From positions 20,495 through 84,494 of the IMG/VR virus record IMGVR_UViG_3300030116_003118: DNA of 64,000 nt. One strand, written 5' to 3'. The notes beneath the pieces are model-generated. The model was given only the letters and a program-made list of their open reading frames with translations. It was not told the origin of the DNA and ran no database searches. Within the stretch, counting starts at the first letter, position 1. Each line of letters starts with the position of its first letter. Of this stretch, positions 1,289 to 23,331 are shown piece after piece. Made by a program: the position numbers and the translations under genes. Source of the DNA: a virus.

Positions 1289-1498
1289 TTACCACGGAAT
1301 ATTTTCGTGTCTCTTATTGTCCAGTTTTTTTGCTTTCTTAAATTGCACAACACCCGGAACATGGTCTGGTTGTTCGCGCTTTAATGTTGCCGGGTCATTT
1401 CCGACAATATCATGTCTCTTACTGACATCTTTCTTCATTGCATTTACTTCCTTGTTAATCTCCTTAACAAGTTCTTTTTTCTTATCTATTGTTGTCAT
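1289..1498 (-). CDS. Small charged protein
   Basis: A 69-residue Lys/Glu-rich protein starting MTTIDKKKELV. Its start overlaps the end of the upstream gene (ATGA-type overlap at 1495-1498), which suggests coupled translation. The N-terminal half is a predicted amphipathic helix and the rest is extended and polar. No known domain. It lies in the leftward virion operon between the tagged 222-residue protein and the long helical protein. Confidence 0.6.
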   Translation of the reverse strand: MTTIDKKKELVKEINKEVNAMKKDVSKRHDIVGNDPATLKREQPDHVPGVVQFKKAKKLDNKRHENIPW

Positions 1499-2163
1499 TT
1501 TCTTTCACTCTCAAGATATTCTATTCCTCTATATTTTATAGGAATCTTTTTACCGCTACTTAATAATTTATCTACTTCTCTCCACTCTTTAAAGTTTATT
1601 ACAGAAAAAGAATATGGTACTCCGGGCATTGTATATCCTGTACCTCTTCTTTTATCCTCTGATTTATATCCTGTCTCTCTAACTACATTAAGGTCAAACC
1701 AACCTAGTTTTCTAAAAAGAGGATTTAATTTCTCTATTATGTCATTTTGCGCCCAAGTTCTTAAGTCATCCCAAGTCTGCCATCTTCTGTTAAATTCTTC
1801 GCTTGGAAATGTTGATACTCTTTCTCTATGAAATCTTTGTCTTCCTCCAAAAAATTCACCAGTCATTGCAGGGCGATTGTATCTTTTTGTACTAAAAAAC
1901 CTATTTAAAAAATGAAAGAAATGTGCAGGGCTACCAAAGGGTTCGGGTCGTGTAGGTGAATGCCAATAACTTTTACCATATCTTTTTTTAGATGCATTTT
2001 TCCAAATTGTTGTATAAGCCTCATCTATCTCTTCTTTGTACTTATGCCATTTAGGTTTAAGTTGGTCTAAATCTCTTGAAAAGTCTCTATCATCAAACGG
2101 TGAACCTTGTTCATCTCTTGGTAAACCAACTTCTACTTTCTTAATAGTTTGTTGCCAATTCAT
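1495..2163 (-). CDS. Tagged virion-module protein, unknown function
   Basis: A 222-residue protein whose N-terminus, MNWQQTIKK, fits the short tryptophan tag shared by many genes of this operon. The body is rich in aromatic and basic residues (many W, F, Y and R) and has no recognised motif. It follows the portal gene with a 4-base overlap and precedes a small charged protein. A head-tail connector or internal virion role is plausible from position alone. Confidence 0.65.
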   Translation of the reverse strand: MNWQQTIKKVEVGLPRDEQGSPFDDRDFSRDLDQLKPKWHKYKEEIDEAYTTIWKNASKKRYGKSYWHSPTRPEPFGSPAHFFHFLNRFFSTKRYNRPAMTGEFFGGRQRFHRERVSTFPSEEFNRRWQTWDDLRTWAQNDIIEKLNPLFRKLGWFDLNVVRETGYKSEDKRRGTGYTMPGVPYSFSVINFKEWREVDKLLSSGKKIPIKYRGIEYLESERK

Positions 2164-3806
2164 CCAACTCGCCTCTCTGTTCTTGAATCAACATTCTTAT
2201 TACCTGCTTCCCTCGGTAAACCAGTAAATCTTTTATCTGGGCCAGTTTCAGAAGATGGTTTATTTCTGGTTGCTGGCGGATTTTCTTGTGGAGTAGTTCT
2301 TTCTTGTTGCCCCTGTTGTTCCATAATTTGACCCATTTGACTTGCATCTATATTTGTACCAGCATAGGGGTCACGTTCAATTTGTTTGTCTTGTCCCTTA
2401 GGTGCTTTACCTTCTTCTGGTTTTGGTTTATGATAAGAAAACCTTCCCTTATCATCCATTTCTACTTCAAAGCCTAAGTTTTTAATAGACGCAGCAATTT
2501 GCACTTCTAGTTCTCTTAACCTTATTTTGGCTAACTCATCTTCTTCTTCAGAAGGAGGTAACTTTAATTTCCAATCTGTGATTCCAAATTGTTCTGTAAT
2601 AAATGGTAAAACATAATCATTCCAAATAGTTTGTGCCATTTCAACTGCACGGTTTGTAACAAGAATTTGCATACCTTCATTATTCAATCCACCACTGGCG
2701 GAATTGTCTGCCATGAAAATTTTAGATACACCATAGAACGCAGAAATTCTATCTCTTAAATCTTCTTTAACAGCAACATAATCCATTTCTTTTAGGCTAT
2801 CTAAAAACTTTATCCACTCAATAGAACCTTTACCATTTTCTGCTTCTATTCCCATAACAGGAATAAAGTGAGGGTCTTGCTCCATTTTTTCTTTAACGCC
2901 TCTCCAGAAATTTTTCATAGAATCAATATTTCTGGTTTGAACTGCAAGTAATCCTCTTGGCATTCTGCTCTTTGAATAAGAAGAATTTACATAATTTTCC
3001 ATAGCAATCAACGTAGTAATGTGATTCCAAAGAGTAAGTATTGGAGACAAACCATAAAGTCTACTTGGATTATATTTACTAAAGTGTAGAACTTCTCCCT
3101 TAATATAATACTGTTCTTCTCCATGCGCTCTATTTACATAATGAATTGGATAAGTAGGGCCACCGCATTCTTCACATCTTTCAGCAGGGTCATCCGATTT
3201 GAAATCTCTATGTCTGATACAGGTAAATCCTTCTTTTCCTTTTGTTCCTTTTTCATCAGAATAAATTGCCATGCTTACAGGGTCTCCCCTATACATTTCT
3301 TTTATTCTGTGCATTTTTATTTCGCCGTTGCCATCTAAGAAATATTCTTTAACTAGAATAACATAGGCATCATCCATGATGTTTAAATCATCTTCCATTT
3401 CTTTTAGAATATCAATAAACATTTGCTCAGATTCATTTACATACCTGTGTAAAAATTTCTTAGCATAAACTAATTGGTCTTTGTTAGGCTTTTTTAAATC
3501 TGGGCTACCGCATTCTTGACAAGCGGGAGTAGGAGACTTATGTTCATTACCACAAGAGTTACATTTTAATGCAAACTTTTCTTCCCAATGATAACCTCTT
3601 CTAAATATCTCCGTCTTTAATTGACTAGTGCAGGTTCTTACTATTACTGATTGTTGTGCAACATGATATACCACTGGTGCAGTAATCATGTATGAAGTAT
3701 CTTTTTCTTGGATACCCGGATTGAAAACTTTTCTATCAGCAGGTTTAGGAGTTCTTCTCCTAAATACATTGCGAATAGAAAATCTTCTTTGTTCTTCTTC
3801 TACCAT
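2160..3806 (-). CDS. Portal protein with two zinc-binding insertions
   Basis: A 548-residue protein adjacent to the terminase region. It has portal-like features: a central segment with RLYGLSPI, followed by SKSRMPRGLL and a FYGVSKIFM region, an acidic/basic helical section, and a disordered polar C-terminus. The portal would form the dodecameric DNA channel at one capsid vertex and dock the terminase. Two cysteine clusters lie in the N-terminal part: C82/C85/C96/C99 and C196/H199/C211/C214, both zinc-ribbon-like, which is uncommon for a portal. It overlaps the next gene by 4 bases. The assignment rests on these motifs, length and gene order. Confidence 0.8.
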   Translation of the reverse strand: MVEEEQRRFSIRNVFRRRTPKPADRKVFNPGIQEKDTSYMITAPVVYHVAQQSVIVRTCTSQLKTEIFRRGYHWEEKFALKCNSCGNEHKSPTPACQECGSPDLKKPNKDQLVYAKKFLHRYVNESEQMFIDILKEMEDDLNIMDDAYVILVKEYFLDGNGEIKMHRIKEMYRGDPVSMAIYSDEKGTKGKEGFTCIRHRDFKSDDPAERCEECGGPTYPIHYVNRAHGEEQYYIKGEVLHFSKYNPSRLYGLSPILTLWNHITTLIAMENYVNSSYSKSRMPRGLLAVQTRNIDSMKNFWRGVKEKMEQDPHFIPVMGIEAENGKGSIEWIKFLDSLKEMDYVAVKEDLRDRISAFYGVSKIFMADNSASGGLNNEGMQILVTNRAVEMAQTIWNDYVLPFITEQFGITDWKLKLPPSEEEDELAKIRLRELEVQIAASIKNLGFEVEMDDKGRFSYHKPKPEEGKAPKGQDKQIERDPYAGTNIDASQMGQIMEQQGQQERTTPQENPPATRNKPSSETGPDKRFTGLPREAGNKNVDSRTERRVG

Positions 3807-5135: not shown

Positions 5136-5149
5136 CTTTTACACCCGAC

Positions 5150-6586
5150 CTAAAAATTTAAACCTATCATTCCCGTATTTTGCTCAAATAGAGGCGTTTC
5201 AGGCTCATCGAATAGTTCCATGTCATCGAGGAGCATAAACGCTTCTGTCGGCGTTTGTGAGGCCGCATTTGCTAAGGCTAGGCCCATAACCAAGTCGTCA
5301 TGCGCACCGACTCCCTCAAACTTACCAGATTGAGTAATTGAGAACATAGATAATTCTTCTAATAGTGCTTGAGTCATCTTTCTGCTGTTATTATCTCCAT
5401 ACGGAAGATGTAATTTGTTGTTTTCAAAGTTCATTTGTAGATTTAATATAATTTCTTGCTTCTTTCTACGGGTTGTATCAAAATCCCTTACATTTAAGTC
5501 GGATACAGCCCTTAACTCTTGTGTAAACGCCTTTGCGAATGTATTTGTTTCGTAAAGTATGACTTCCGGCTCAAACACTTGACCAATTAGACGTAATTTA
5601 TCAATATTTTCTCTAAATTGAACATTTTTACTTCTATCTACATGAACAATGCTTTTATTTTTCTCATCATCTACTTCTAAAACCATAATTACGTTATAAT
5701 CGCCGTCTGTAGAGATAGCAGGGTCAACACCTACATAATATTTGTATCCTTTATCTTTTCTGTGACCTAATTTAAGAATTAAATCTCTATTTTTTGCATT
5801 TTCTAAGTGTTCTTGTCCAAAAAGTGCTGTTCCTGTTGAAACTGGTATACATAGATACTCCCTAGTAAACTTTAATGAACCAATTTCTGCCTTCCTTTGC
5901 ATCAGAGCATCAAAATCCCATCTTTCAGGCCATAAGGGTTCATTCATTGAATCTAAACAGGGATATTTTCTAACTGTATAGGCTTCGTTTTCTTCTAGTT
6001 GTGAGAAAATATCAGTATAAGTAAAAGGAGTCCCTATCATTCTAAGATTAGCAGTGTGGTGAAGTGTAGGAATCATATCTCCGAAGAACCAATCAGTAAC
6101 TCTTTGAATACCAGTTAAACTAAACTCTTTCAAAGGGTCATCAATAATAATTTCTTGCGGGTGAAGACCACGAATCTGTGAACCTACTGACCTTTCAAGA
6201 ATTGAGTTGCCATTCGTTAATGTTATGTTTCCAATAGCCCATCCTCTTGTTGGTCTAAACTTTTTTAACTGTGGTAAATTAAAATATCTATCTATCTCTC
6301 TCATGTGAACAAGAGTCTGCTTTTGGTTCGATGAAATGTATAGCATCTGATATGGTGGTTCTTGGAACACTAAATTCCAAACTACCCAAGAATGCATAAA
6401 AACAGATTTTCCGTGGTCACGACTACAGACTATTACGGTTCTATCTGTGTTTGACATAGTATCTAGCCATTCTTGCATATAGGCAGGATACATCATACCT
6501 AATACATTTTGAAAGAAATAAGGAAATGAATCTTTTGACATTTGCATATCCATCTGATGAGCAAAGTTTAATTCTTCTAATTCCAT
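5150..6586 (-). CDS. terL: Terminase large subunit
   Basis: A 478-residue DNA-packaging motor. The N-terminal ATPase has Walker A CSRDHGKS (residues 54-61), Walker B EIIIDDPL (145-152) and a coupling motif MIGTP around 183-187. The C-terminal RNase H-like nuclease shows VGVDPA with D288, a probable acidic residue near E346, and HDDLVMG with D430/D431. Length and order of motifs match T4 gp17-like terminases. The enzyme would translocate DNA through the portal and cut concatemers. It precedes the LAGLIDADG-fusion and portal genes in the leftward operon and lacks the tryptophan tag. Confidence 0.93.
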   Translation of the reverse strand: MELEELNFAHQMDMQMSKDSFPYFFQNVLGMMYPAYMQEWLDTMSNTDRTVIVCSRDHGKSVFMHSWVVWNLVFQEPPYQMLYISSNQKQTLVHMREIDRYFNLPQLKKFRPTRGWAIGNITLTNGNSILERSVGSQIRGLHPQEIIIDDPLKEFSLTGIQRVTDWFFGDMIPTLHHTANLRMIGTPFTYTDIFSQLEENEAYTVRKYPCLDSMNEPLWPERWDFDALMQRKAEIGSLKFTREYLCIPVSTGTALFGQEHLENAKNRDLILKLGHRKDKGYKYYVGVDPAISTDGDYNVIMVLEVDDEKNKSIVHVDRSKNVQFRENIDKLRLIGQVFEPEVILYETNTFAKAFTQELRAVSDLNVRDFDTTRRKKQEIILNLQMNFENNKLHLPYGDNNSRKMTQALLEELSMFSITQSGKFEGVGAHDDLVMGLALANAASQTPTEAFMLLDDMELFDEPETPLFEQNTGMIGLNF

Positions 6587-7185
6587 TATTTCTTTCTCCT
6601 TAATGATGCGTTAATTTTATTCCATTTCTTTGCCATTGGTACAGGTAAATAAATAACAAAATCCTGCCCTTTACTTGCCGCCATTTCTGCATGTTCATCC
6701 ACGACCTTCTTTGGTATAAAGTCATAGTAACTTTCTAAGTTATCTGGGTTTGTCATCCAAAATTTTCTCTTGAAAGAATCAGCCCAAGCAGTGCCTCCTA
6801 ATGTAGTATTATTGATTAAACCTATTCCGGGCTTAGAAGCCATCTTATCCATTTTTTCATTCTGTAGTTTTCTACTAATTCCTGAAAAACCTTTAGAGCC
6901 ACCACGCCTATAATCAGGATGAACTCTTGTACCTGCTAATACCCAATAGGTTCCATAATCTTGCCAACCACTATAACCAATCATTCTATTATTATCCCAT
7001 GCAGTAAGATAATCCCCTTCAAAAGTATATGGGTTTAGATTATTAGGACTTTCTCTTCGTGCAATTCTTGGATTATCTGGATTTGATTCGTTCCAAATTT
7101 CAACAATCTCTTCTTCAGAAAAAGCCCTAACAGGAAAAGTTATTCCTTTGTATCCTGTTTGTTTAAGCAAGTCAAACCAATTCAA
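6586..7185 (-). CDS. Tagged GNAT-family acetyltransferase-like protein
   Basis: A 199-residue protein starting with a TTG codon and the tag MNWFDLLK, preceded by the SD-like GGTGG. After the tag, residues about 55-110 resemble the GNAT core: a beta hairpin, then a motif A-like segment VHPDYRRGG (88-96) that would bind the acetyl-CoA pyrophosphate. The enzyme would acetylate a small molecule or protein; the substrate is unknown. The tag in front of an enzyme domain suggests delivery or incorporation into the particle. The stop overlaps the terL start. Confidence 0.6.
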   Translation of the reverse strand: MNWFDLLKQTGYKGITFPVRAFSEEEIVEIWNESNPDNPRIARRESPNNLNPYTFEGDYLTAWDNNRMIGYSGWQDYGTYWVLAGTRVHPDYRRGGSKGFSGISRKLQNEKMDKMASKPGIGLINNTTLGGTAWADSFKRKFWMTNPDNLESYYDFIPKKVVDEHAEMAASKGQDFVIYLPVPMAKKWNKINASLRRKK

Positions 7186-7534: not shown

Positions 7535-7689
7535 TTCTCATCAACTACCTTGTGTTCAAATAAATAATCCGATGCATCATCTACGGATGACCAATCATGT
7601 TCATCTAAATCATATTTATCTGCGACTTCCTCTAAATCATCTATTGCCTCATCAACTGGCTTTTTCTTTACAATGTCAAACCACTTCAT
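7531..7689 (-). CDS. Tagged acidic mini-protein
   Basis: A 52-residue protein starting MKWFDIVKKK, an excellent match to the operon's shared N-terminal tag. The remainder is acidic, with many D and E residues. It starts and ends in ATGA overlaps with both neighbours, which fixes the start. Since almost nothing but the tag and an acidic tail is encoded, this gene shows the tag functioning as the main conserved part of a product. Confidence 0.65.
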   Translation of the reverse strand: MKWFDIVKKKPVDEAIDDLEEVADKYDLDEHDWSSVDDASDYLFEHKVVDEK

Positions 7690-8108
7690 GCAGTGTAACC
7701 TCCGGGTTCATCAGTTTCTATAAACATCTCAAGAATTTCTTTTCCCTTTTCAACATCTATTTTTTCTGGTCTAGGTACTCCCATCATGTCTACCATAAAA
7801 TCAGGTATCATCTTAAATCCTTCATCTGCCGCATCCCACTTTACTTTGGTTAAATAATGATAAAGAAATTCAGGGTTTGGTTCTGGTACATCAACGACAT
7901 CGCTTATTAATTTATAATTATGTTTTTGTCTCTCTATCATGTCCCTCAGTTTACTAGGAGCCATAAAAGCATCGCCAGTTCTTTCCTCTTGTTTTAATGC
8001 TAGTTTATACAGAGCCTCTACAAATTCTAAACTCTGTAATGTTTGTTTTACCATCATAAGCCCTACATCTTTTATAGGGTTTCTTTTTGTGATTTCAAAC
8101 CAACTCAT
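7686..8108 (-). CDS. Tagged virion-module protein
   Basis: A 140-residue protein beginning with the tag MSWFEITK. The body is mixed helix and polar coil with an acidic C-terminus and no recognised domain. Four-base overlaps on both sides indicate tightly coupled translation within the leftward operon. Confidence 0.65.
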   Translation of the reverse strand: MSWFEITKRNPIKDVGLMMVKQTLQSLEFVEALYKLALKQEERTGDAFMAPSKLRDMIERQKHNYKLISDVVDVPEPNPEFLYHYLTKVKWDAADEGFKMIPDFMVDMMGVPRPEKIDVEKGKEILEMFIETDEPGGYTA

Positions 8109-12679: not shown

Positions 12680-13528
12680 TCACGCTACAAACCAGTCATC
12701 TTCCTTTATTCCTTCTGGAATAAATAGGAAGTCATCATTCGGATTTTCTATCACTTGTTCTTTGAACCCTGTAACGAAATCCGGCTTATCCATGTCTGGT
12801 GCGGCGGCTCTACCTCTAGGCGTAACTTCTGGGAATCCCTTTAGATTGTCATCTTTTAATCGTTGTCTATTTAATCTAAATAGTCCCTTCTCCACCAAAC
12901 TCATAATTATGGGGTTTTCGCCTTGTTTTATATTTACTAAATCTCCTAATCCAAAATCAGCAAATAGTTTCCTTTGTTGCTTTAATGCTGCGCCACCAGT
13001 ATCATAATACGTTCTTATGTATAGTGCTGCGGCTTCTGCATTTGTTAATGGCACTATCTCAGGCATGTATATGAAATTAGTATCTGCTGGAATATCTATT
13101 ATTACAGATTGATAAGGTCTCCTTACATCCTCTATAATAGAAACACCTAATTCATCTGGGTTTAAAGTCCAAGTAGCCCTACCGCTACCAACATCTCTAA
13201 TATCTGGTATTTGAGAAGCCCTATCCATTTCTCCCCAAATAGCCTCATCATATTCTACATCTCTTTCTCTTAACTGCCAGTTATTGATGTTAACTTTTCC
13301 ATACAATCCTCTAGCAGTATTACTAACAAGTCGTGGTCTAAAGATGTTATTCTTTCTTTTGAACCACCTTACCATCGTTCTCTCTTTATTGAATCTGTCC
13401 ATCCACTTTCCAGATTCATTGAAGACTAAATCTTCTAATTCTGGAAACGCTGCTAAATTAAAGTATCCATACTTTTCACCTTGCATCGTAGTAGGCATCT
13501 TCAATACTTTTTCCCAAAGTTCATCCAT
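12680..13528 (-). CDS. Tagged virion-module protein
   Basis: The start is placed at ATG 13528, which follows the SD-like GGTGA with a six-base spacer; an in-frame GTG lies three codons upstream. The N-terminus MDELWEKVLK is a shifted version of the shared tag. The 282-residue body has no recognised motif and contains beta-type segments rather than long coiled coils. It sits between a large helical protein and a zinc-finger protein. Confidence 0.65.
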   Translation of the reverse strand: MDELWEKVLKMPTTMQGEKYGYFNLAAFPELEDLVFNESGKWMDRFNKERTMVRWFKRKNNIFRPRLVSNTARGLYGKVNINNWQLRERDVEYDEAIWGEMDRASQIPDIRDVGSGRATWTLNPDELGVSIIEDVRRPYQSVIIDIPADTNFIYMPEIVPLTNAEAAALYIRTYYDTGGAALKQQRKLFADFGLGDLVNIKQGENPIIMSLVEKGLFRLNRQRLKDDNLKGFPEVTPRGRAAAPDMDKPDFVTGFKEQVIENPNDDFLFIPEGIKEDDWFVA

Positions 13529-13537: not shown

Positions 13538-13945
13538 CTAATCTATTTGACTTCTATCTTGTCTAAATTCACCTGCTTGACCTGCATTACAATCCCACGG
13601 TTGAAAGTTATGAACTGTTTTAGCACTCCTTCCTGAAGTTGGTGACACAAATGATTCTAATATTTCTTTGTGTATATCACATGATTGATGACCACAGTTT
13701 CTACACTTGTATGTTGCCCTCATGTTACACATTGGATTACGACATTCACATTCATCTTTTGTTTGTGGTGCGACATCAGTGGCATCTTCCGTTGAATCCT
13801 CCTGTTCTGTTCTATCACCCATTTGACGGGTATCTTTCGTTTTACTCCTAGTCCTGTCTAACTTAGGCGGGGGGTCTCGCAATAAAGGTTGGGGGCCACT
13901 TGGACTTCTATCAAAAATCTTAACGATATCCTTCCAATCATTCAT
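13538..13945 (-). CDS. Tagged zinc-finger protein
   Basis: A 135-residue protein with tag MNDWKDIVK, a polar disordered middle, and a C-terminal cysteine/histidine cluster (CECRNPMC, CRNCGHQSC, DIH) resembling a B-box or A20-like zinc finger. A related C/H pattern occurs in the tagged protein at 21474-21773, so the two may be paralogues. Nucleic-acid or protein binding is inferred from the zinc pattern. Confidence 0.65.
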   Translation of the reverse strand: MNDWKDIVKIFDRSPSGPQPLLRDPPPKLDRTRSKTKDTRQMGDRTEQEDSTEDATDVAPQTKDECECRNPMCNMRATYKCRNCGHQSCDIHKEILESFVSPTSGRSAKTVHNFQPWDCNAGQAGEFRQDRSQID

Positions 13946-14114
13946 ATTTGAACCTCTTATTTAATGCGTCTTTTCTCCTATTACAACCGCAGTCTTTACC
14001 CGTCTTTTCTGAAACATAATCAACTGCTTTCTTTATTCCTGTAGCAGTAGTAATTCTTTCAATAGTATCTCCTAAACCTTTATCTTCTTTTAAAAGTTTA
14101 TCTTTCCAACTCAT
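13938..14114 (-). CDS. Tagged short conserved phage-type protein
   Basis: A 58-residue protein beginning MSWKDKLLK. Its middle reads GLGDTIERITTATGIKKAV and its end has a DCGCNRRKDALN motif, a pattern I recognise from short hypothetical proteins of marine T4-like phages. ATG 14114 gives the tag and the stop overlaps the start of the zinc-finger gene. It is easily missed because of its length. Function unknown. Confidence 0.65.
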   Translation of the reverse strand: MSWKDKLLKEDKGLGDTIERITTATGIKKAVDYVSEKTGKDCGCNRRKDALNKRFKYE

Positions 14115-14125: not shown

Positions 14126-14311
14126 CTATGCATTCTCTTGTTGAAATTCCATCTCTCTTAACATATCAGGAGTGCAATCGTGATTAGCAAAATCTTCTTC
14201 GTTATCACTTTCATAACCACATAATTGACAACGATACTTATCTTCTTGAACACCGTGTTTAAAATTACCTAATTCGTATCTTTTTGCCTTTAGCATATCT
14301 TGCCAACTCAT
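14126..14311 (-). CDS. Tagged C2H2-like zinc finger protein
   Basis: A 61-residue protein consisting of the tag MSWQDMLK followed by a compact zinc finger (CQLCGYESDNEEDFANHDC). The Cys-x2-Cys and His/Cys spacing suits a C2H2-type or rubredoxin-like knuckle. Probably binds nucleic acid or a partner protein inside the particle. Confidence 0.65.
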   Translation of the reverse strand: MSWQDMLKAKRYELGNFKHGVQEDKYRCQLCGYESDNEEDFANHDCTPDMLREMEFQQENA

Positions 14312-14313: not shown

Positions 14314-14634
14314 TTATAACCTCTCAAATGTTCCTAATGTTGGTTGTCTAGGGTCAGGTACTTGCGTTTTTACTTCGGCTAATGTGGTCTGTGTTTTAGG
14401 AACTTTAGGAACCTTTTCTAATGCTCTTAATTGAGAAGTCATTTGCCCTGCGTTAGATATTATTCTATTAATCCACCTATCTTCTATTTCTTTGGCTTCC
14501 ATACTAAGCCCCTTTCTTTCTAATACGTTCATAAATGAATCAATCTTTTCAAATTCATCTTTTACATTGTTCCATCGAGGGTTCTTAGAAAACCTCATCA
14601 ATGGTTGTCTTTTAACTATATCTTCCCAATTCAT
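14314..14634 (-). CDS. Tagged small protein
   Basis: A 106-residue protein with tag MNWEDIVK, a central helical region and a proline- and threonine-rich C-terminus. Start and stop form tight junctions with the neighbours. No recognised domain. Confidence 0.6.
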   Translation of the reverse strand: MNWEDIVKRQPLMRFSKNPRWNNVKDEFEKIDSFMNVLERKGLSMEAKEIEDRWINRIISNAGQMTSQLRALEKVPKVPKTQTTLAEVKTQVPDPRQPTLGTFERL

Positions 14635-15710
14635 GTTGTTCTTGGCTCCCTTAAAAAATTATTTAAATCTGTAAGTGCAGTAGTTAGGGCTTCTTCCCTT
14701 TGTTCTCTTCGGGTTTCATAATCTTTCATTTCTTGTGCTGTTGGCCCTGCTTCTCTCGCTTCTGTTTTTCTATCTTCTTCAACATCTTTGTCTTCTTCTT
14801 GTTGTAATTCATTTAATAACTTAGCAGACTGTTCAGATATGTTTCCTGATGCCCTCTGTCTTTCTAAATTTTGAATTAGTTTTTGATTTGATGCCCTTCT
14901 TTGTTCAGCAGTTAATGTAGCCAATGGTTGGTTTGCTTTAAATCCGGGTTGTAATCCTGCTTCTTGTGCTTCTGCTGATGTCATCGCTGGTTGTCTTTGT
15001 TCTGTAGCATCTGTTGGTTTTCCTCTAACAGTTTGAACATTTCTTCCTAAAGTCTGTCTCCATGTTTCTCCTATCTTTCCACCAGAACCTATTCTTAATC
15101 TTTCTAAAGGAGATAGTTTTGTTTCGCCTCTTCCTTGAACTGCTTCTCTTTCTGCGCCTCTAACGTTTCCAAACATTCTATCTTGTCTTTGAGGGTCATT
15201 AACATAATCACTTACTGCTTGTCGCTGTCTTGCATTTTCTTCTGCTTCTCTTACTTTTGCCCTATCTCTTTCTATTTTCGCTTTGCCTTGTTGAGTGTCA
15301 ACTCTTGCTTGTCTTTCTCTTAGTTTTTGTTTTCTATCAATAGCCGCCTGTTCCCTCTTTCTTTCTTGTTCTTTGGCTCTTAATTGTCTTTGATAATCAG
15401 CCCTATCCTTTTGGTCTTCTTGTTCTTTTTGTCGTTGTTCAAAGAACTTAAAATTTTCATCTTGTTCTTTTCCTCTTGCTTCGTCTGCTTGAGCAGATAA
15501 TTCAGAACCTCTTGATTCAAGAACATTTTTCCTTTGTTGTTCTTTCATCTCTTTTGCCTTGCTTTCTTCTACTCCTCTTTGATATCTTCTTTGTGCGCTA
15601 TCAGTAGATATTTTCTTATCTCGCTGTTTTATCTTTCTTCTACTGCCAGCAACAAACCCCGGTTTCATAGGGGCTTTAGCAAGTTCAAACCAAGCAGCAG
15701 TTGCGTTCAT
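14631..15710 (-). CDS. Tagged Arg/Gln/Glu-rich coiled-coil protein
   Basis: A 359-residue protein with a shifted tag (AWFELAK at residues 6-12) preceded by SD-like GGTGAT. The body is extremely rich in R, Q, E and K and almost entirely predicted coiled coil or long single helix. Such composition suits a scaffold-like or DNA-contacting internal protein. It overlaps the next gene by 4 bases. Confidence 0.65.
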   Translation of the reverse strand: MNATAAWFELAKAPMKPGFVAGSRRKIKQRDKKISTDSAQRRYQRGVEESKAKEMKEQQRKNVLESRGSELSAQADEARGKEQDENFKFFEQRQKEQEDQKDRADYQRQLRAKEQERKREQAAIDRKQKLRERQARVDTQQGKAKIERDRAKVREAEENARQRQAVSDYVNDPQRQDRMFGNVRGAEREAVQGRGETKLSPLERLRIGSGGKIGETWRQTLGRNVQTVRGKPTDATEQRQPAMTSAEAQEAGLQPGFKANQPLATLTAEQRRASNQKLIQNLERQRASGNISEQSAKLLNELQQEEDKDVEEDRKTEAREAGPTAQEMKDYETRREQREEALTTALTDLNNFLREPRTT

Positions 15711-15714: not shown

Positions 15715-16029
15715 TCACCTTTCTTTTTCTCTTAGTTTATTTTGCCACGAAGAATCAAAAAATTCTGGTGAGGCTCTATCATCTGGTTTACCACCGAATT
15801 GCGCCCCTCGCATCTTAGGCATCTTTGTTGCCTTTTCTTTATCCCTTACAAGTTTTAATCTATATAATACTACAAACTTATTACAGTCGTCACAAACTCT
15901 GCCATCAATTAAAGGTCTACCATTGTTTCCAAATTTTCCGTATGGTTTACCACACAAAGCACAGGTTTTACCTCTGTCTTCCATGTCATCATTTTGTCTG
16001 ACTGTTTTGAAAATATCATCCCAATTCAT
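15715..16029 (-). CDS. Tagged zinc-ribbon protein
   Basis: Start chosen at ATG 16029, which gives the tag MNWDDIFK and an ATGA overlap with the upstream gene; an upstream in-frame Met would remove that arrangement. The 104-residue product has a zinc-ribbon-like cluster (CALCGKPYG ... CDDCNK) and a basic, disordered C-terminus. Function unknown. Confidence 0.65.
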   Translation of the reverse strand: MNWDDIFKTVRQNDDMEDRGKTCALCGKPYGKFGNNGRPLIDGRVCDDCNKFVVLYRLKLVRDKEKATKMPKMRGAQFGGKPDDRASPEFFDSSWQNKLREKER

Positions 16030-16685
16030 GCCATTTTCTCCTCCATCTTTCGTTTCACATCTAACCAAACTTGTGGATGATTTTGTGCTAATACCTCTTG
16101 AACAATCTGCATTTGCGCTACTATGATTGTATCCTGTCTCTTATGAACTAACTTGCCCTTAAACTCCATAAGATATCGTAGACTCTCTCTAATCTCTTTT
16201 GCTAGTTTAGTTAAACTATCTATGTATTTAGGATGTAATGGCTCATCGCTATCGAAAAGCGTATCTATTTTCATTTCTAACCGTGTTATATTTTTAGACA
16301 GACTCTCAATTTCGTCTACCTCCTTCACCGCTATTATATTTGCCGCAGACTTCTGAACCAATGGTTGAAGATGTTTCCTCATGTGTCGCTTTACTTGTTC
16401 TTCTGAACATTTCAAAAGCATTGAAACACCTTTTGGTGTTACCGAACCTTCACTTAATTCTTTCTCTAAATGACCTCTTAACTCATGCGTACAAAAGGCA
16501 CACCTCGGATTAGATGCATCAACATAATCTCCCATATGATTTCTTTGATGCCTTGCTGATGTTCCGCTAGGCCAATCCATTTGCCTATCCAAATCATCAG
16601 GCGCAATAGCCATTGTTTCTAATTGCGCTTCTAAATCATCACGGTCTTCGTGATTACATAATTTACATCGTCTTCTCTTTACCAT
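16026..16685 (-). CDS. Zinc/HTH protein, candidate terminase small subunit
   Basis: A 219-residue protein starting MVKRRRCKLC (ATG 16685, overlapping the upstream stop by 7 bases). It has two similar N-terminal units, each with a Cys-x2-Cys knuckle, a helix and a basic RHxRNHM or RHMRKHL segment, i.e. a duplicated zinc/helix DNA-binding module. A long coiled coil follows. DNA-binding head plus oligomerisation helix is the build of terminase small subunits, but the gene is far from terL, so this is only a candidate. Confidence 0.5.
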   Translation of the reverse strand: MVKRRRCKLCNHEDRDDLEAQLETMAIAPDDLDRQMDWPSGTSARHQRNHMGDYVDASNPRCAFCTHELRGHLEKELSEGSVTPKGVSMLLKCSEEQVKRHMRKHLQPLVQKSAANIIAVKEVDEIESLSKNITRLEMKIDTLFDSDEPLHPKYIDSLTKLAKEIRESLRYLMEFKGKLVHKRQDTIIVAQMQIVQEVLAQNHPQVWLDVKRKMEEKMA

Positions 16686-17848
16686 GCTAATACACTCTTC
16701 CAACTCTTTTTAACTTCTTTCTTTTTCTTTTCTACAGGTTTAGGCTTTGCTACCCCCGGCATGAATACAGTTTCTTTACCGGGTGTTCTCTTACACTTAC
16801 CTGTTAAAATGGCTAGATTTTTTGTCTGCCTTCTTGAAATGTTTACTGAAATCCCTTTTACTTCTCCTATGAACTTATCATAGTCTGCTACTCTTTTAAC
16901 AGTCTTACTGTCTTTTACACCAATATCTATAAATGTAAATGCCTTGAGCCTATTGTTAACATGGGTGTCTCTGAACATACCTGTTGTCTTATTAATGCCC
17001 CAACCGGGAGCCTGTGGTGTTCCAACGCATTCTGCCATGTATTCCTTGATGGCATCTATAGTCATCAATTCTGGAGCAGTTACGCCTTTTCCAGAATCCA
17101 CAATCTTTAGTTTCAAATGCTCAAAACTAACATCTTCCTCTAATGCCTTTACAGTTTCACTTAGAATATAAACTAAACCATTGCTAACCAATTGTTGCTT
17201 TAAGATTATACTCTTTTTAACTTCATATAACGTACCATCACCTGCAAACAATGCTTGCCACATTGGAGGCTCGGCAGTATTTTTACTTGTATTATACCAA
17301 TCAGAAGAAACCGCCTTTATTGACTCCTCTTTTCCTCCAAACAATTTTGCTTTTAGATTTCTATATTTAACATAATCAGTGGTTCTATAATGACCATATA
17401 CTTCTTTAGTATCTGTCTCTTCATCATAGTCTGCATTCTTTCTATTTACCTTTCTAAAAATAGGTACTGTGAAAACAATGTTTCTTGGGTCTGCTTCGGT
17501 ATTCTGCATGTTCTTTAATTTAGTATATACCTTAGTAACATTCTTTTTATCTTCCTCAGTTATACCATCTGTTAAATCTAACAAAGCATCCAGTAACTCC
17601 ACTACGTTACCTGCACCGTCATCTAACGGGTCATCAGTATATGGCCTAGCAACTTGTGTATCTCCATGTGCGGCAACTAAATCTAATAATGTTTTATCAG
17701 AAGTAATTCCCATTTGCTCTCCACTAACACTACTACATTGGTCTTTCCATTCTTCATAAGCCTCCTTAAACTTAGAAGAATCAAAAGTTTGTGTTCCCTG
17801 AGAGCCGTCTATAGAGACTCCAACATTTGCCTTCTTTTCTTTTGCCAT
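16679..17848 (-). CDS. Virion-module protein with tag-like C-terminus
   Basis: A 389-residue protein of mixed alpha/beta character starting MAKEKKANVGVSI. It lacks the N-terminal tag but ends in a lysine-rich linker followed by SWKSVLAW, closely resembling the operon's tag transferred to the C-terminus. No recognised domain. The stop overlaps the start of the next gene, while the upstream junction is TAATG. Confidence 0.65.
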   Translation of the reverse strand: MAKEKKANVGVSIDGSQGTQTFDSSKFKEAYEEWKDQCSSVSGEQMGITSDKTLLDLVAAHGDTQVARPYTDDPLDDGAGNVVELLDALLDLTDGITEEDKKNVTKVYTKLKNMQNTEADPRNIVFTVPIFRKVNRKNADYDEETDTKEVYGHYRTTDYVKYRNLKAKLFGGKEESIKAVSSDWYNTSKNTAEPPMWQALFAGDGTLYEVKKSIILKQQLVSNGLVYILSETVKALEEDVSFEHLKLKIVDSGKGVTAPELMTIDAIKEYMAECVGTPQAPGWGINKTTGMFRDTHVNNRLKAFTFIDIGVKDSKTVKRVADYDKFIGEVKGISVNISRRQTKNLAILTGKCKRTPGKETVFMPGVAKPKPVEKKKKEVKKSWKSVLAW

Positions 17849-18093
17849 TACTCTTCCTCTTCATCATTATCCATTGTGTGAATAGATAGGTCTTTCTTTC
17901 TATTATCCACACCCCCTTCATCATCTAGGTTTTGCGACATACCCCCTGCTACGGCTGTTGCACCTGCACCTATTATTGGAGCGATAACTTTCTCCAAATC
18001 TTTCTTCTTCTTTCCGTATAATGGTCTTGCCTCTATACCCCCTGTATTAGACATGACTGCACCTGAATCTTTTATTACATTCCACCACTTCAT
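17848..18093 (-). CDS. Tagged small Gly/Ala-containing protein
   Basis: An 81-residue protein with tag MKWWNVIK. Its middle has a glycine/alanine-rich hydrophobic stretch (IIGAGATAVAGGM) that could insert in or contact a membrane, followed by an acidic tail. No family recognised. Confidence 0.6.
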   Translation of the reverse strand: MKWWNVIKDSGAVMSNTGGIEARPLYGKKKKDLEKVIAPIIGAGATAVAGGMSQNLDDEGGVDNRKKDLSIHTMDNDEEEE

Positions 18094-18299
18094 AGTTTTT
18101 TTACCTCCTTCAATAAATCTGCATAGTAACTGCTTTTTCGATTATAAAATATTCTTACTAATTTTACTTTGTCGTTTGCTCCCATAAATATAGGGTCATT
18201 TTTCTTAACACCATATTCTTCCATTTGGCGAATTTCCTTATCTGTTTTGATTTCCTCTAACTGAACATCATACTTTTGTTTGAATATTTTAAACCACAT
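18090..18299 (-). CDS. Tagged small basic protein
   Basis: A 69-residue protein starting MWFKIFKQK, a tag variant in which Trp directly follows Met. The remainder is basic with scattered aromatics. ATGA overlap with the next gene. Function unknown. Confidence 0.6.
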   Translation of the reverse strand: MWFKIFKQKYDVQLEEIKTDKEIRQMEEYGVKKNDPIFMGANDKVKLVRIFYNRKSSYYADLLKEVKKL

Positions 18300-18300: not shown

Positions 18301-18969
18301 CTATTCTTCTCCTTCTGGTAGTTCTGGTAATTTCTTAAGTGCTTTAACTATTTCTTTATATGCAGGATGTTTAGTAAATAATGTAATGTAAAATATCTTA
18401 TCATCCTTTGTAGGTGGCTTGAATTTATAAGGTTGTGGTGGTCTTTCTGTAGAAGTATCTTTAGTTATTTTAACAGAAGTTCTTTCTTCTTCTTCTTCTT
18501 CTAACCCCATAGCATCATAGTATGCTTGACGGTCTCCTTCTTCCCAAAAATCAAATGTAACTAATTTTGGTTTCCCCATAAACTTTAGATTTTTATTTGC
18601 TAACTCTAGCCCAAATTTTGCTAAATCTCTAACTACTTCTCTTAATTTATTTTTACCAGCAGAACCAACATGTGACGGGTGAGTATTATATGTGAATTCA
18701 TATGGCTCATCTGCATTAAAATTATCTTTTATCTGTTTCATGGTAAAGTTATCTTTAGATTGATTTAACATTGTTGGAGATAAAGTTTTGAGACCTATCC
18801 AAGCAAGCGGTAATCTTCCGCTTCCTCTACCTTCCATTGTATACCCATCACCTGTTGCTTTAACAATGTCTATCATATTAGGTCTACTTTCATAGTTTTC
18901 AATAGCCTCATTTATTTCTGATTCAGTTGGCATCAAACGCTCTCTTTTAAGAAGGCTTTCCCACATCAT
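18301..18969 (-). CDS. Tagged virion-module protein
   Basis: A 222-residue protein with tag MMWESLLK. It is mixed alpha/beta and has an acidic run (LEEEEEERTS) before a proline-rich segment. The two adjacent ATGs make the exact start uncertain by one codon. No known domain. Confidence 0.6.
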   Translation of the reverse strand: MMWESLLKRERLMPTESEINEAIENYESRPNMIDIVKATGDGYTMEGRGSGRLPLAWIGLKTLSPTMLNQSKDNFTMKQIKDNFNADEPYEFTYNTHPSHVGSAGKNKLREVVRDLAKFGLELANKNLKFMGKPKLVTFDFWEEGDRQAYYDAMGLEEEEEERTSVKITKDTSTERPPQPYKFKPPTKDDKIFYITLFTKHPAYKEIVKALKKLPELPEGEE

Positions 18970-19694
18970 CTTCTTCTCACCCCATCTAAATCTCTAAGTT
19001 GTTTCTTCCATCTTGGTCTTTTTTTCTTAGGAGAAACTTGTTCATCCTTCCAATCTCTATGTTTTTCTCTATATCTTTCAGATGGCTTCATTTCAGAAGG
19101 AGCCAATTTACCTTCCATCCTAGCACCCTCTTCTTCATCAATAGTTAAATCTTCATTGTCTTTCATGTAAGTTGTTTTACACAATTGCCATTGTTCTTGA
19201 ACATACTTCATTCCATCTAAATTCATAATGTCTATACCAAAGAGAGTTATGTCCTCCCCTCTATCTGGTTCCATTAAGTTGTTGATAGTTTTACAATCAT
19301 AGTCCATAATTGTACGGAATACTTTCTTTCTTCTTGCAGGAGTTAGTTTGTAAAGATTTTCATTTTCATTCATATATTCAATAACTTCTTCTAATAATAA
19401 TTCTTTTGCCCCTTCACAGCAAGGGTCATCATCTGGATTTACTTGGCCGTCTTCTGCCATTGTAAAACTAGGAGAAACCCTACTAATAATATCTTTAGAC
19501 ATTCCACCCCTTTGACTGTATTCTTCCTCTTCATCATCATCAGAAGAAGGCGCACCTCCCCCGCCTCTATTTGGGCCACCGCCTCCACCGCCAAAACCGC
19601 TTTGTCTATCTAATTCAGATTCTCTTTCCCTATTAACCCACTTACCAGTTTTAGGGTCTTTTGTCCTAACCTTTAGAATCTTATTCCAATCCAT
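18966..19694 (-). CDS. Tagged protein with Gly-rich linker
   Basis: A 242-residue protein with tag MDWNKILK, then a glycine-rich low-complexity linker (residues about 33-50), an acidic run and a structured C-terminal half containing paired cysteines (DPCCEG) and ending in a basic tail. The flexible linker between tag and body fits a tag that acts as a separate targeting element. Confidence 0.6.
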   Translation of the reverse strand: MDWNKILKVRTKDPKTGKWVNRERESELDRQSGFGGGGGGPNRGGGGAPSSDDDEEEEYSQRGGMSKDIISRVSPSFTMAEDGQVNPDDDPCCEGAKELLLEEVIEYMNENENLYKLTPARRKKVFRTIMDYDCKTINNLMEPDRGEDITLFGIDIMNLDGMKYVQEQWQLCKTTYMKDNEDLTIDEEEGARMEGKLAPSEMKPSERYREKHRDWKDEQVSPKKKRPRWKKQLRDLDGVRRR

Positions 19695-19696: not shown

Positions 19697-20056
19697 CTAC
19701 ACCTTGTAATATGTTTTCTTTCCGTTCCTTCCAACGCCGCGTTCTTGTTTTGTTGTAATGTTCATTGTTTCTAATCTCTTTCTTAAGAAAGACGTAAGGT
19801 TTTCATCACTATCTTTTAACTTGGGATTTTGTTCTCTTAGTGATTTTATTATATCGTCTATTGTATTCCAATCGTTATTAGTTTGTAAATATTTTGTAAT
19901 CTGTGATTCTAAAGAATCATAAAATTCAGTGCTTCTTTTTCCGTGTTTCTTTCTTAGATAATCTAAATGTTTCATATCATCAGACTTTGCATACTTTTCA
20001 GCAAGCATCTCAAACTCTTTGAGTTCATCAGATTTAATTAATTCAAACCAAGTCAT
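19697..20056 (-). CDS. Tagged protein with winged-helix-like C-terminus
   Basis: A 119-residue protein with tag MTWFELIK. Residues about 55-119 resemble a winged-helix fold: helices, then a beta hairpin near the end with a basic glycine turn (GVGRNGKKTYYKV). DNA binding is plausible but not shown. Confidence 0.6.
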   Translation of the reverse strand: MTWFELIKSDELKEFEMLAEKYAKSDDMKHLDYLRKKHGKRSTEFYDSLESQITKYLQTNNDWNTIDDIIKSLREQNPKLKDSDENLTSFLRKRLETMNITTKQERGVGRNGKKTYYKV

Positions 20057-20060: not shown

Positions 20061-20336
20061 TCACCAATCTCTACACGCCATACATCTAGCAGAATAATCT
20101 CCTTTTCCGCACGTTGAACATTTATGTCTTGCTCTAAAGGATTTCTTTCTCTTAGTGTTTCCACTCTTACCTGTCACTTTAACTCCTGATTGACCCCAAT
20201 GAACTTTCTTATACTTGCCTTTCTTTCCTGATGGAACACAAGCCATCCATTTCTTTCCACTTCTTGTTGATTTGGTTTTACCTGTTCTTTTGGTACACCT
20301 ACCAGACTTACACAGGTTATCAAACCAAGCATCCAT
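20061..20336 (-). CDS. Tagged basic Cys-rich protein
   Basis: Start taken at ATG 20336, giving the shifted tag MDAWFDNLCK; an in-frame TTG lies three codons upstream. The 91-residue product is strongly basic (K, R, S, G) with two cysteine pairs near the C-terminus (CSTCGKGDYSARCMAC). The lysine/glycine-rich body resembles small DNA-binding proteins of phages and large viruses. It neighbours two other basic Cys-containing tagged proteins. Confidence 0.65.
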   Translation of the reverse strand: MDAWFDNLCKSGRCTKRTGKTKSTRSGKKWMACVPSGKKGKYKKVHWGQSGVKVTGKSGNTKRKKSFRARHKCSTCGKGDYSARCMACRDW

Positions 20337-20337: not shown

Positions 20338-20706
20338 TTATTCAATCCTTGTAGTATCCTTACTTAAATGTCTTAAGTATTTATCATCTAATTCATAGAA
20401 GTGAAATAGTTTTTTACTCTTGCCTTCTACATGTTCTTTACCAGACATTAAAGTTCCATCGGGGTGTTTGTGGGTTTCACCAGTCCACTGAACAGGTTTA
20501 CCATCTTCAATATAGAAATGTCTTTCTCCCTTTCCTTTCCTAAGATTCTTAAAATCTTCTCCCGTTATTTTACCATCATCATTGGTGTCAATTTCATGCT
20601 GGTCACCAACGAGTTTTTTCTCCTCCATTACAACAACAGGCCCGTATGTTTTACACGGATTTTGCCCACAGCCGCAATGTCTCTTTATTACTTCTTCCCA
20701 AGTCAT
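20338..20706 (-). CDS. Tagged EF-hand-like calcium-binding protein
   Basis: A 122-residue protein with tag MTWEEVIK, a small Cys cluster (CGCGQNPC), and a canonical 12-residue EF-hand or dockerin-type loop DTNDDGKITGED (residues 40-51), where D40, N42, D44 and D51 are the expected ligands. The C-terminal part is rich in H and K. Calcium binding is inferred from the loop. Confidence 0.65.
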   Translation of the reverse strand: MTWEEVIKRHCGCGQNPCKTYGPVVVMEEKKLVGDQHEIDTNDDGKITGEDFKNLRKGKGERHFYIEDGKPVQWTGETHKHPDGTLMSGKEHVEGKSKKLFHFYELDDKYLRHLSKDTTRIE

Positions 20707-20966
20707 CTTTTTCCTTTTCTCCTTTTATATGTTTTACACGCTGCACATGTTGGTCTACATCTTCTCTTTTTACCTTTTGAAGCATCTTTTCTACCACAAG
20801 GTTTAGGCCCACCCTTTCTTCCACAAGTTGAACAATCAATCCATCCTCCCTGTGTTTTACCTCCTTTGGTTTCTTTTCCGCCTCTTCTTGAAAACCATCC
20901 ATGTAATCCTTCATCTTTTTCGCGCTTGAATTTGTCTCCGCCTTTAACTACTTCAAACCAACTCAT
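20703..20966 (-). CDS. Tagged basic Cys-rich protein
   Basis: An 87-residue protein with tag MSWFEVVK and a very basic, glycine-rich body holding several cysteines (CSTCGRKGGPKPC, CRPTCAAC). Probably binds zinc and DNA. It overlaps both neighbours by 4 bases and belongs with the adjacent genes at 20061-20336 and 20963-21148 as a set of small basic proteins. Confidence 0.65.
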   Translation of the reverse strand: MSWFEVVKGGDKFKREKDEGLHGWFSRRGGKETKGGKTQGGWIDCSTCGRKGGPKPCGRKDASKGKKRRCRPTCAACKTYKRRKGKR

Positions 20967-21148
20967 TTTGATTTACCCCAATTAGCACAACCTACCTTTC
21001 TACAACGCACTACTGCACCGGAAGCATAAGCAGAAGGCCAAACTGAATATCTTGCTTTTACCTTTCTAGTACAGCAATCATCTGTGTTTTTCTTTTTCTT
21101 ACGCCTTCGCGCTTTTTTCTTCTTGGCCTTTACAACTTCAAACCACAT
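20963..21148 (-). CDS. Tagged DUF5872-like basic protein
   Basis: A 61-residue protein: tag MWFEVVK, a run of K and R, then a conserved segment containing VKARYSVWPSAYASGAVV and CRKVG. I recognise this segment from small basic proteins of marine phages and large DNA viruses (DUF5872-like). Likely binds DNA, given its charge. The family name is from memory. Confidence 0.65.
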   Translation of the reverse strand: MWFEVVKAKKKKARRRKKKKNTDDCCTRKVKARYSVWPSAYASGAVVRCRKVGCANWGKSK

Positions 21149-21462
21149 TATTTCTGCCCCACATATAAAAACTTCATACCATTGCGTTCATAGATTATTC
21201 GCATATTACCTAGTCTAGCCTCTCTTTTGAGAAATGCCCTTAATTCTCCATCAGTAGGCATAGCCCTTCTAAGAGGAGATTTTGGTTTACCGGAAGCATC
21301 TAACACTCTACCTGCGGCTCTTTCTTTGTTGTCTTTTTCAATAGCAGTTCTAACCATAGACATTATTTGTGCTACGTCTAATGGCCTGTCAACATACTTA
21401 ATGGTGTCTGAAACAATTTGATGTAGTTGTTTTTTCTTTTTTACTATATCTTCCCAACCCAT
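21148..21462 (-). CDS. Tagged small protein, possible winged helix
   Basis: A 104-residue protein with tag MGWEDIVK, helical middle (AQIMSMVRTAIEKD) and a C-terminal beta-type end (RNGMKFLYVG) that together could form a winged helix, as in the gene at 19697-20056. SD-like GAGGTG precedes the start. Function unknown. Confidence 0.6.
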   Translation of the reverse strand: MGWEDIVKKKKQLHQIVSDTIKYVDRPLDVAQIMSMVRTAIEKDNKERAAGRVLDASGKPKSPLRRAMPTDGELRAFLKREARLGNMRIIYERNGMKFLYVGQK

Positions 21463-21473: not shown

Positions 21474-21773
21474 TCATAGTTTTACCATGTTATTGTGACC
21501 ATCCATGCCACTGTCTTTATGCTCATCACACCATTGCGCTCCACATTCAGCACAAGCCCACGTTGCTTTATTTTTACAACCTCTGCCAAAAGGTTGCCAA
21601 GAGGAACACGCATCTTTTGGGAAATCTGCAATGTTAAAATCTGCCATAGTGTCTTTACCAGTCCTACGCTGAAAACCCTTAAACTCCTTAGGTTTCTTTT
21701 CTGGTGTTTTTGGGTCAGGCTTTTTCCCCCCTCTATTCGGATTAAATACTTTAACGAGTTCTTCCCATGACAT
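21474..21773 (-). CDS. Tagged zinc-finger protein
   Basis: A 99-residue protein with tag MSWEELVK, a proline/lysine-rich linker and a C-terminal zinc cluster (CKNKATWACAECGAQWC, DEH). The Cys/His order resembles that of the tagged gene at 13538-13945, suggesting duplication. Role unknown; protein or nucleic-acid binding is inferred. Confidence 0.65.
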   Translation of the reverse strand: MSWEELVKVFNPNRGGKKPDPKTPEKKPKEFKGFQRRTGKDTMADFNIADFPKDACSSWQPFGRGCKNKATWACAECGAQWCDEHKDSGMDGHNNMVKL

Positions 21774-21777
21774 AGGG

Positions 21778-23331
21778 TTACCTCCAATCCAGCATAGGAA
21801 GCAGTTTAGTCTTAAGGTCTGCGGGCAAGTTGGTATTGCTATAGAACAGATATCCTAATTTTAACACCATCTTGTCATTCTTGCGTATGCCCAAAGTATT
21901 AATCAAAACGTCACTAGAACTTGCCTGTGCCTTTTTCCACGCATAATATCTTACAATATAATATTGGTCATCTATTCTGGTTTCAACGGTTTTCTGCCTC
22001 CATTTGCGGGGCTTATCAAATTGAGTATCATATTTATTTTCTAAGTCTTCAATAACCATTAGTTCTCTTGGCCTGAGTTCTTTCTTCCATTTATCATAAT
22101 CACCGACTCTTTTATACCAGCCCTTCATATTGCCACTTAGAATCATATCTGCTCTTGAGACTACATAAGCCTCCCTTCCTGCACTTGGGTCTAATGTTCT
22201 TTCAGGTACATCTTCTGGAGATTTTGTTTTTGCTTTTTTACCACTCCATAAATCACCGTTTTCATCTAACGGCCCAAAGACATCTTTTTTACCAAAGGGT
22301 TCATTGGTGAGTTTTCTAAGTGCAATACAAGCAATTATCTCTGGAATATCATCTATAAATTTATAATTAGTAAAATACGGTTGAGCAATAGGATTTTCAA
22401 AATTACTGCCGCTTTCAGTCAAACCTAACTGTCTTCTAACTTTAGGGTCATCCGCTTGCTTTTTTCTTTCTTCTTCAATTAAATTAAGAGCATCTTGCAT
22501 TTTATCATTAATGCCAAAAATGTTTATTCTAGAACCCATATCTTTTTTCATTTTATCCCAGTAATTTGACATTTCTTTTCTACACTTATCATCTCTTAAT
22601 CCTTCTGTAGTATATGCTTCGTGAACATCTTCTATTTTGGTATCTGAAAACAATTGTGATTCAGGTTCATCTTCTCTTCCAAGACCGGGGCCAGCCGCAA
22701 GTGCTGTATTTAAATTACCTACCTGTTTACCCATTTTATTATAATACTGTAATAACCTACCTGTTAACCACTCGGCATATTTATCTAAATTTCCTTCTGG
22801 TGATTGAGCATGCATAAACATTTTTAACGCTAGAGAATATCTTATATTGTAATAATCCTGACTATCATTTAATTGACCCTGACTTTGAGACCTATCTCGC
22901 TCAGTATCCCTAAAGAACCATCCATAATGTAGCCTATTAGCAAACTGATGGAAAAAGGAACTTACACTTGGATGTTCTATATCTCCCTCCATTTCATTAT
23001 CTTTCATTATCTCAATTAAATCTCTAACATCCATAAAACTATTAGGAAGTACATAATCACCCTGCCTCTCTAATATAAGATTTAATACCTTTGTCTTCCA
23101 TTCGGAATTAAGTTGGTCGGTGTTTCTACCACGAAGAAAAATCGAAGCATCAAAATACGGTCTTTGCAAATAACTAAAAGGAGAGTAATTAAAAATTCTT
23201 TGTCCTCTTAATATCTGAGATAATGCTTCTACTGATGATGCATAATATTGGCTTACATTAGAAGGAATATATATTTTCTTTATCTCATCTTTCTCATCAG
23301 TAGGAATTCTTGCTATTTCTCTCCAACTCAT
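21778..23331 (-). CDS. Large tagged virion-module protein
   Basis: A 517-residue protein whose N-terminus MSWREIAR is a diverged form of the tag. The body is alpha-rich with many aromatics and no recognised motif. It is nearly the first gene of the long leftward operon, preceded only by a small membrane protein, so it may be expressed highly. Confidence 0.65.
   Translation of the reverse strand: MSWREIARIPTDEKDEIKKIYIPSNVSQYYASSVEALSQILRGQRIFNYSPFSYLQRPYFDASIFLRGRNTDQLNSEWKTKVLNLILERQGDYVLPNSFMDVRDLIEIMKDNEMEGDIEHPSVSSFFHQFANRLHYGWFFRDTERDRSQSQGQLNDSQDYYNIRYSLALKMFMHAQSPEGNLDKYAEWLTGRLLQYYNKMGKQVGNLNTALAAGPGLGREDEPESQLFSDTKIEDVHEAYTTEGLRDDKCRKEMSNYWDKMKKDMGSRINIFGINDKMQDALNLIEEERKKQADDPKVRRQLGLTESGSNFENPIAQPYFTNYKFIDDIPEIIACIALRKLTNEPFGKKDVFGPLDENGDLWSGKKAKTKSPEDVPERTLDPSAGREAYVVSRADMILSGNMKGWYKRVGDYDKWKKELRPRELMVIEDLENKYDTQFDKPRKWRQKTVETRIDDQYYIVRYYAWKKAQASSSDVLINTLGIRKNDKMVLKLGYLFYSNTNLPADLKTKLLPMLDWR

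Follow-up and report, generated by a model that had tools for sequence, protein, structure and literature searches.

A shared terminal tryptophan peptide on unrelated late proteins of uncultured marine archaeal viruses: a probable capsid-targeting tag

The stretch of DNA analyzed here, referred to as the window, comprises the 64,000 nucleotides at bases 20,495–84,494 of the 84,494-bp IMG/VR record IMGVR_UViG_3300030116_003118, from an uncultured marine virus of a kind infecting archaea. The leftward late operon of the window contains the genes for the portal protein (2160..3806, minus strand) and the terminase large subunit (5150..6586, minus strand), with a block of mostly unknown proteins upstream of both. 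Many proteins of this operon carry a short terminal peptide built around a tryptophan (hereafter, the tag), which is absent from the portal and the terminase. The same eight-residue tag was found on hundreds of otherwise unrelated proteins, in this virus and in more than 100 sequenced fragments of related viruses.

An earlier note on this DNA had listed 24 tagged N-termini, and all of them were found in place when the leftward genes were read directly (the position of each tag is followed here by that of its gene, all on the minus strand). The series begins with MNWQQTIKK on a 222-residue protein (2137..2163; gene 1495–2163), NWFDLLK on a GNAT-like acetyltransferase, the one tagged gene with a TTG start (7162..7185; 6586–7185), MKWFDIVK on a 52-residue protein whose L013 homologue is tagged too (7666..7689; 7531–7689), MSWFEITK (8085..8108; 7686–8108), and MTWETVLK on a 673-residue protein (12652..12675; 10654–12675). 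Next come MDELWEKVLK (13499..13528; start set at 13528), MNDWKDIVK on a Cys/His-rich protein (13919..13945; 13538–13945), MSWKDKLLK (14088..14114; 13938–14114), MSWQDMLK on a C2H2-like protein (14288..14311; 14126–14311), MNWEDIVK (14611..14634; 14314–14634), MNATAAWFELAK on a 359-residue charged, coiled-coil-like protein (15675..15710; 14631–15710), and MNWDDIFK (16006..16029; start set at 16029). Further along are MKWWNVIK (18070..18093; 17848–18093), MWFKIFK (18279..18299; 18090–18299), MMWESLLK (18946..18969; 18301–18969), MDWNKILK (19671..19694; 18966–19694), and MTWFELIK on a winged-helix-like protein (20033..20056; 19697–20056). The last seven are MDAWFDNLCK on a basic protein (20307..20336; start set at 20336), MTWEEVIK on an EF-hand-like protein (20683..20706; 20338–20706), MSWFEVVK on a basic, Cys-rich protein (20943..20966; 20703–20966), MWFEVVK on a very basic one (21128..21148; 20963–21148), MGWEDIVK on another winged-helix-like protein (21439..21462; 21148–21462), MSWEELVK on an AN1-like zinc finger protein (21750..21773; 21474–21773), and MSWREIAR on a 517-residue protein (23308..23331; 21778–23331). 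Three of these genes start inside the longest open reading frame (ORF; 12680 at 13528, 15715 at 16029, and 20061 at 20336), and the spacing is slightly altered in MNWQQTIKK, MSWKDKLLK, and MDAWFDNLCK. A 25th tag, MWEKVILK, lies just outside the window (L008 19656–19991).

With an automatic gene caller that picked starts without regard to the tag, 20 of the 30 minus-strand genes of positions 1–23,400 were tagged, and none of the 10 genes at 23.4–29 kb, of the 57 rightward-operon genes of this virus (the replication side), or of its 21 head/tail-block genes. The same caller returned no tagged gene in control segments of the Haloarcula virus HVTV-1 (64 genes) and of T4 (57 genes). The wider comparison covered 80 related IMG/VR loci fetched with the terminase large subunit. 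In these relatives the strict motif, W..[ILVT][ILV]K, occurred 425 times in the first 20 residues of 1454 genes, where 3.5 occurrences were expected from internal sequence (about 120-fold), 18 times in the last 20 residues, again with 3.5 expected, and 39 times among 327,145 internal residues. The late strand carried 550 tags and the opposite strand three. When a DNA pattern was used instead, about 150 matches were obtained in 20 whole records, all but one of them on a single strand per record, while the reversed pattern gave none in the same records. The enrichment, the strand bias, and the zero-match controls rule out chance or composition as the source of the tag.

Because the 80 genomes are kin, the motif counts are not independent. 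Clustering of the bodies carries more weight: the 926 distinct tagged proteins found in 160 loci group into 360 clusters, of which 243 have a single member. One cluster, with 185 members, is probably too large because of basic sequence of low complexity, and one member of the tagged set A1 is a false tag within the terminase. The claim that the tagged bodies are unrelated holds, and the observation itself is confirmed and is much larger than first described. We also found 265 apparently untagged homologues of tagged proteins, for which start sites and contig edges are uncertain. A broad distribution among phages was rejected: beyond the protease-bearing group described below there were single matches only, due to a small membrane protein family and to repeats in very long, tape-measure-like proteins.

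Aligned on the tryptophan, the tag reads [S N T D]-W-[F E Q K]-[D E N]-[I V T L]-[L I V]-K, with frequencies of.53 for S,.54 for I,.64 for L, and.96 for the lysine at W+5. Conservation begins one residue before the tryptophan and stops sharply at the lysine, falling from 2.94 bits to 0.31 at the next residue. Among 150 cluster representatives, W3 was the sole invariant position, with M1 and K8 above 90%. The codons for K, I, V, L, D, and E are as variable in the tag as in the bodies, so that selection acts on the peptide; the element is a peptide, conserved at the amino-acid level. That the motif has no peptide function and is instead a nucleic-acid element of gene 5′ ends, for translation initiation or another purpose, might be suspected from the serine at codon 2, which is AGT in 237 of 247 tagged genes. 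However, AGT dominates codon 2 of untagged genes as well (111 of 156), a bias that is largely a general start-context effect, and the other tag codons vary; such an element is refuted by the C-terminal copies of the motif, and we assign it a negligible probability.

These C-terminal copies had been missed in the earlier note, which took the tag to be purely N-terminal. With a C-terminal tag defined as an ORF ending in W..hh[K/R] plus at most seven residues, 55 such ORFs were detected. The cleanest swap between the two ends is that of the GNAT family. The window protein has a GNAT fold, with Foldseek matches to PDB acetyltransferases (E about 1e-4), and in its AlphaFold model the tag lies outside the fold, at a predicted local distance difference test score (pLDDT) below 50. 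This protein and its L013 relative are N-tagged and have a decayed C-terminal tryptophan, and the homologues in L205, L275, and L283 (EKSWHLILKRY) and in L252 (PEWKKILRGD) are tagged at the C-terminus only. Also in the window, a 389-residue protein (gene 16679–17848) ends in SWKSVLAW (16682..16705, minus strand); its family retains the C-terminal tag while the body drops to 20–28% identity, with homologues ending in NWQDMLVRL, DWRTIMK.., SWMDILRN, and DWREIVKAV. An L247 relative of this family is N-tagged, as is a protein of L277 with the C-end KWFNSLRI; since a partial C-terminal motif remains in both, these are additions and not clean swaps. L054 and L057 encode a protein with a tag at both ends. 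Being usable at either end, the tag behaves as a docking motif and not as a start-site artefact or a secretion signal, and, judged from sequence, this shows a portable docking peptide. An N-terminal signal or secretion peptide, which would be confined to the N-terminus and have a hydrophobic core, was likewise rejected, the tag being a charged 8-mer that is also C-terminal.

A different terminal sequence was observed in a family of 850-residue proteins (window 8105–10657), in which the C-end VY.[LV]KA.[FY]R-stop is almost invariant with bodies down to 20–30% identity; it is possibly a second terminal docking motif.

The tagged bodies that could be recognized include GNAT, a CCA-adding tRNA nucleotidyltransferase (L269, tag GWMQILK, domains at 30–390), pentapeptide repeats, a 2H phosphodiesterase, helix-turn-helix (HTH) proteins, zinc ribbons, and KH. 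Strongly basic proteins make up 16% of the tagged bodies, compared with 2.7% of untagged genes.

Beyond the window, the late operon runs on into head genes and then tail genes. The head genes (coordinates in L008) encode a small coiled-coil protein of 82 residues (19424–19672), an 836-residue ATP-dependent DNA ligase, an S78 prohead protease that also has a scaffold-like coiled coil (15403–16650; Pfam match 3.8e-10), and an SU10-type major capsid protein (MCP; 13983–15392). With Peptidase_S78, an HK97-type MCP, portal, and terminase all found, these genes are a head module of the tailed-virus type. Its content agrees with the published description of magroviruses (PMC10160649), viruses of Marine Group II archaea (Poseidoniales), to which this virus may be related. 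Of the 13 records with several tags that were tested, 12 also had the S78 protease and one, a 36.7-kb fragment, did not; none of three unrelated phages having a single chance tag match had this protease. A motif related to the tag but weaker, M[S/D]W.[D/E]I[H/N], stands at the C-terminus of both the protease and the 82-residue protein. The tryptophan of this motif is invariant across the protease alignment and is retained in all divergent proteases read, and a model built from the proteases weakly picks up the small-protein gene via the protease C-terminal region (E about 3e-4, three records). The structure model of the protease (mean pLDDT 47) is too poor to use; it places a separate short helix from W403. 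In the window, a 225-residue zinc/HTH-like protein (16026..16703, minus strand) has a C-end, VWLDVKRKMEEKMA, that weakly resembles this scaffold-type motif.

The restriction to the late block, the use of both termini, the co-occurrence with the S78 protease, and a spacing like that of the T4 capsid-targeting sequence (CTS) make a capsid-targeting or docking peptide the best fit, and we consider it likely that the tag targets internal cargo to the head. The capsid-targeting or assembly-docking peptide that the earlier note proposed is thus supported in part, but its purely N-terminal position and its implied cleavage are not. Capsid location, packaging, a binding partner, and ejection are what we infer. 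The tag would be a short linear motif, [S/N/T/D]-W-x-[D/E/N]-[I/V]-[L/I/V]-K, probably forming an amphipathic helix of one to two turns. Late in infection, the tagged proteins would be made alongside terminase, portal, scaffold/protease, and capsid, and the tryptophan and the hydrophobic residues at +3/+4 would bind one common procapsid partner. The likeliest partner is the scaffold core or the inside surface of the shell, and binding would take place at, or close to, the site to which the S78 protease-scaffold and the small coiled-coil head protein would attach by their own C-terminal tryptophan helix. In this manner, the tag would bring internal cargo proteins, a large set that changes fast, into the procapsid of a magrovirus-like group, and the cargo would be enclosed with the DNA and delivered at infection, like the T4 internal proteins (IPs) and Alt and P1 DarB.

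Several observations count against capsid targeting as described. Most tagged bodies are without a known domain, and HVTV-1, the nearest cultured relative, with a colinear head module, was rejected as a tagged relative when no tags were found in it. The C-terminal motif of the protease and scaffold matches the tag only partly (W, [DE], and I, and not the terminal LK), and a profile of the tag ranks the scaffold-type motif only in the top 2–25% of internal tryptophan windows. Because this resemblance is partial, we keep capsid targeting separate from the hypothesis that the tag binds the same site as the scaffold tail, and give the latter not quite an even chance.

Cleavage by the prohead protease was implicit in the earlier note. 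If the tag were a propeptide, it would target the protein, and the S78 protease would then cut it off directly behind the conserved lysine, as T4 gp21 cuts the CTS; the near fixation of that lysine and the halt of conservation exactly there agree with this. Moreover, the lysine resembles the P1 residue of conserved hhK|[S/A] segments in the MCP (NALLK|SAG, about residue 28), the protease (ILK|SDD, residue 19), and the small head protein (LLMK|SG), which are good candidate S78 cleavage sites. The residue after the tag lysine is, however, serine in only 5% of cases and alanine in 16%, no enriched hhK[S/A] site is found downstream of the tag, and in C-terminal tags the K/R lies close to the last residue, where cleavage would not detach the cargo. 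As these preferences do not fit and the C-terminal tags keep K/R, a cut after the tag lysine is disfavored, and a propeptide is unlikely.

The late proteins might also be docked to another hub (the terminase/portal complex, a host chaperone or membrane, or a virus factory), in which case their products need not enter the head. What the sequence gives, a docking peptide that recurs within a late block adjoining terL and portal, would suit such a hub, but the similar C-terminal motif on the protease and scaffold, the basic and enzyme-like cargo, and the absence of the tag from replication and tail genes argue against it, and we regard it as improbable. A short terminal peptide on many proteins could further be an import or localization tag for a replication compartment, or a host-directed localization or degradation signal. 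Replication-side genes, though, would need import first and are all untagged, and the tag occurs at both termini; we judge this very improbable.

Among known systems, encapsulin cargo-loading peptides are short terminal peptides by which cargo is docked to the inside of an HK97-fold shell, as proposed here for the tag; they differ in being mostly C-terminal and in serving few cargos, in cellular compartments, and are likened to it by description and not by sequence. As with the CTS of T4, where about 10 N-terminal residues are common to the unrelated internal proteins IPI, IPII, IPIII, and Alt (IPII and IPIII start MKTYQEFIAE, and IPI starts MKTFKEFT), the tag combines an aromatic residue with an acidic one at +2 and hydrophobic ones at +3/+4 (MKTYQEFI and MSWFDIL), and it accompanies many small basic cargos with a prohead protease nearby. 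In T4 IPIII, residues 4 and 7 govern targeting and residues 8 and 10 processing, and Alt is processed at both ends (PMC9026906), with which the two proteins of this virus group tagged at both ends may be compared. Unlike the CTS, the tag has a fixed tryptophan, ends in lysine and not in the gp21 site I-A-E, and stands at either terminus; its cargo families number in the hundreds, those of the CTS only a few, and cleavage is supported for the CTS but not for the tag. No sequence homology to MKTYQEFIAE was found, the likeness being in spacing only (T4 peptides score like the top 7–13% of random tryptophan windows), and no CTS-like motif was seen at the ends of T4 gp21 and gp22. By analogy, then, the tag system appears to work like the CTS without being homologous to it.

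In P1, which has an HK97-like head with a prohead protease, the N-terminal 30 residues of DarB suffice to direct a foreign protein to the capsid, and this packaging signal differs from the tag in having no shared consensus (PMC9024508). For the C-terminal propeptide of the SPN3US protease (gp245), a role in directing the enzyme to the core has been proposed (PMC7411985), but this propeptide is long (64 residues), cleaved, and not common to cargo. In the literature searched we found no paper describing the tag or containing six typical tag strings, and the magrovirus survey (PMC10160649) mentions no N-terminal motif. The tag may thus be seen as a new form of the known capsid-targeting principle, and the claim would be broader if packaging at both termini and scaffold mimicry were confirmed.

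Regarding the neighboring genes, the nearest cultured protease is haloviral, and that of HVTV-1 is among the closest (32–33% identity over 41%); this virus shares the colinear order terL-HNH-portal-...-protease-MCP. The HNH/homing-endonuclease-like gene of the window (3810–5135) lies between terminase and portal, the same arrangement as in HVTV-1. The DNA ligase (L008 16690–19200) has large extra domains; within the head operon, its gene separates that of the small coiled-coil protein from that of the protease, and a zeta-toxin-like gene occupies the equivalent region in HVTV-1. In HVTV-1 (L290), gp113, gp115, and gp116 (4230–7376, 8623–12564, and 12557–13018) have near their ends a repeated module of about 30 residues, VY(V/I)..P.(E/D)APE...V..G..G..YY, a possible halovirus analogue of a cargo tag. 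The 184,733-bp record IMGVR_UViG_3300021958_000021 (L206, L211) has two S78 proteases about 91 kb apart and is probably two related virus genomes joined in assembly. Head genes of this virus group are also encoded by contigs in Maricaulis IN14 and Thioglobus metagenome-assembled genomes (L291–L294), which are likely mis-binned viral contigs; a host assignment from genome contigs was rejected, the matches being only such stray contigs in bacterial bins.

Tentatively, the tag may represent a modular cargo-loading code in an abundant archaeal-virus lineage, in which a peptide that works at either end and mimics the shell-binding tail of the scaffold would let hundreds of unrelated effectors be exchanged in the head, and in which spotting the tag alone would predict the injected proteome. 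Should the tag mark proteins for packaging, the genome of any such uncultured marine archaeal virus would directly reveal its cargo, which in the set studied here would include acetyltransferases, an enzyme of tRNA repair, and DNA-mimic-like repeats with the potential to weaken host defence. Capsid-targeting peptides would then have evolved in archaeal viruses to an extent far greater than in T4 or P1, and HK97-type shells could be loaded with proteins by means of a small, portable tag.

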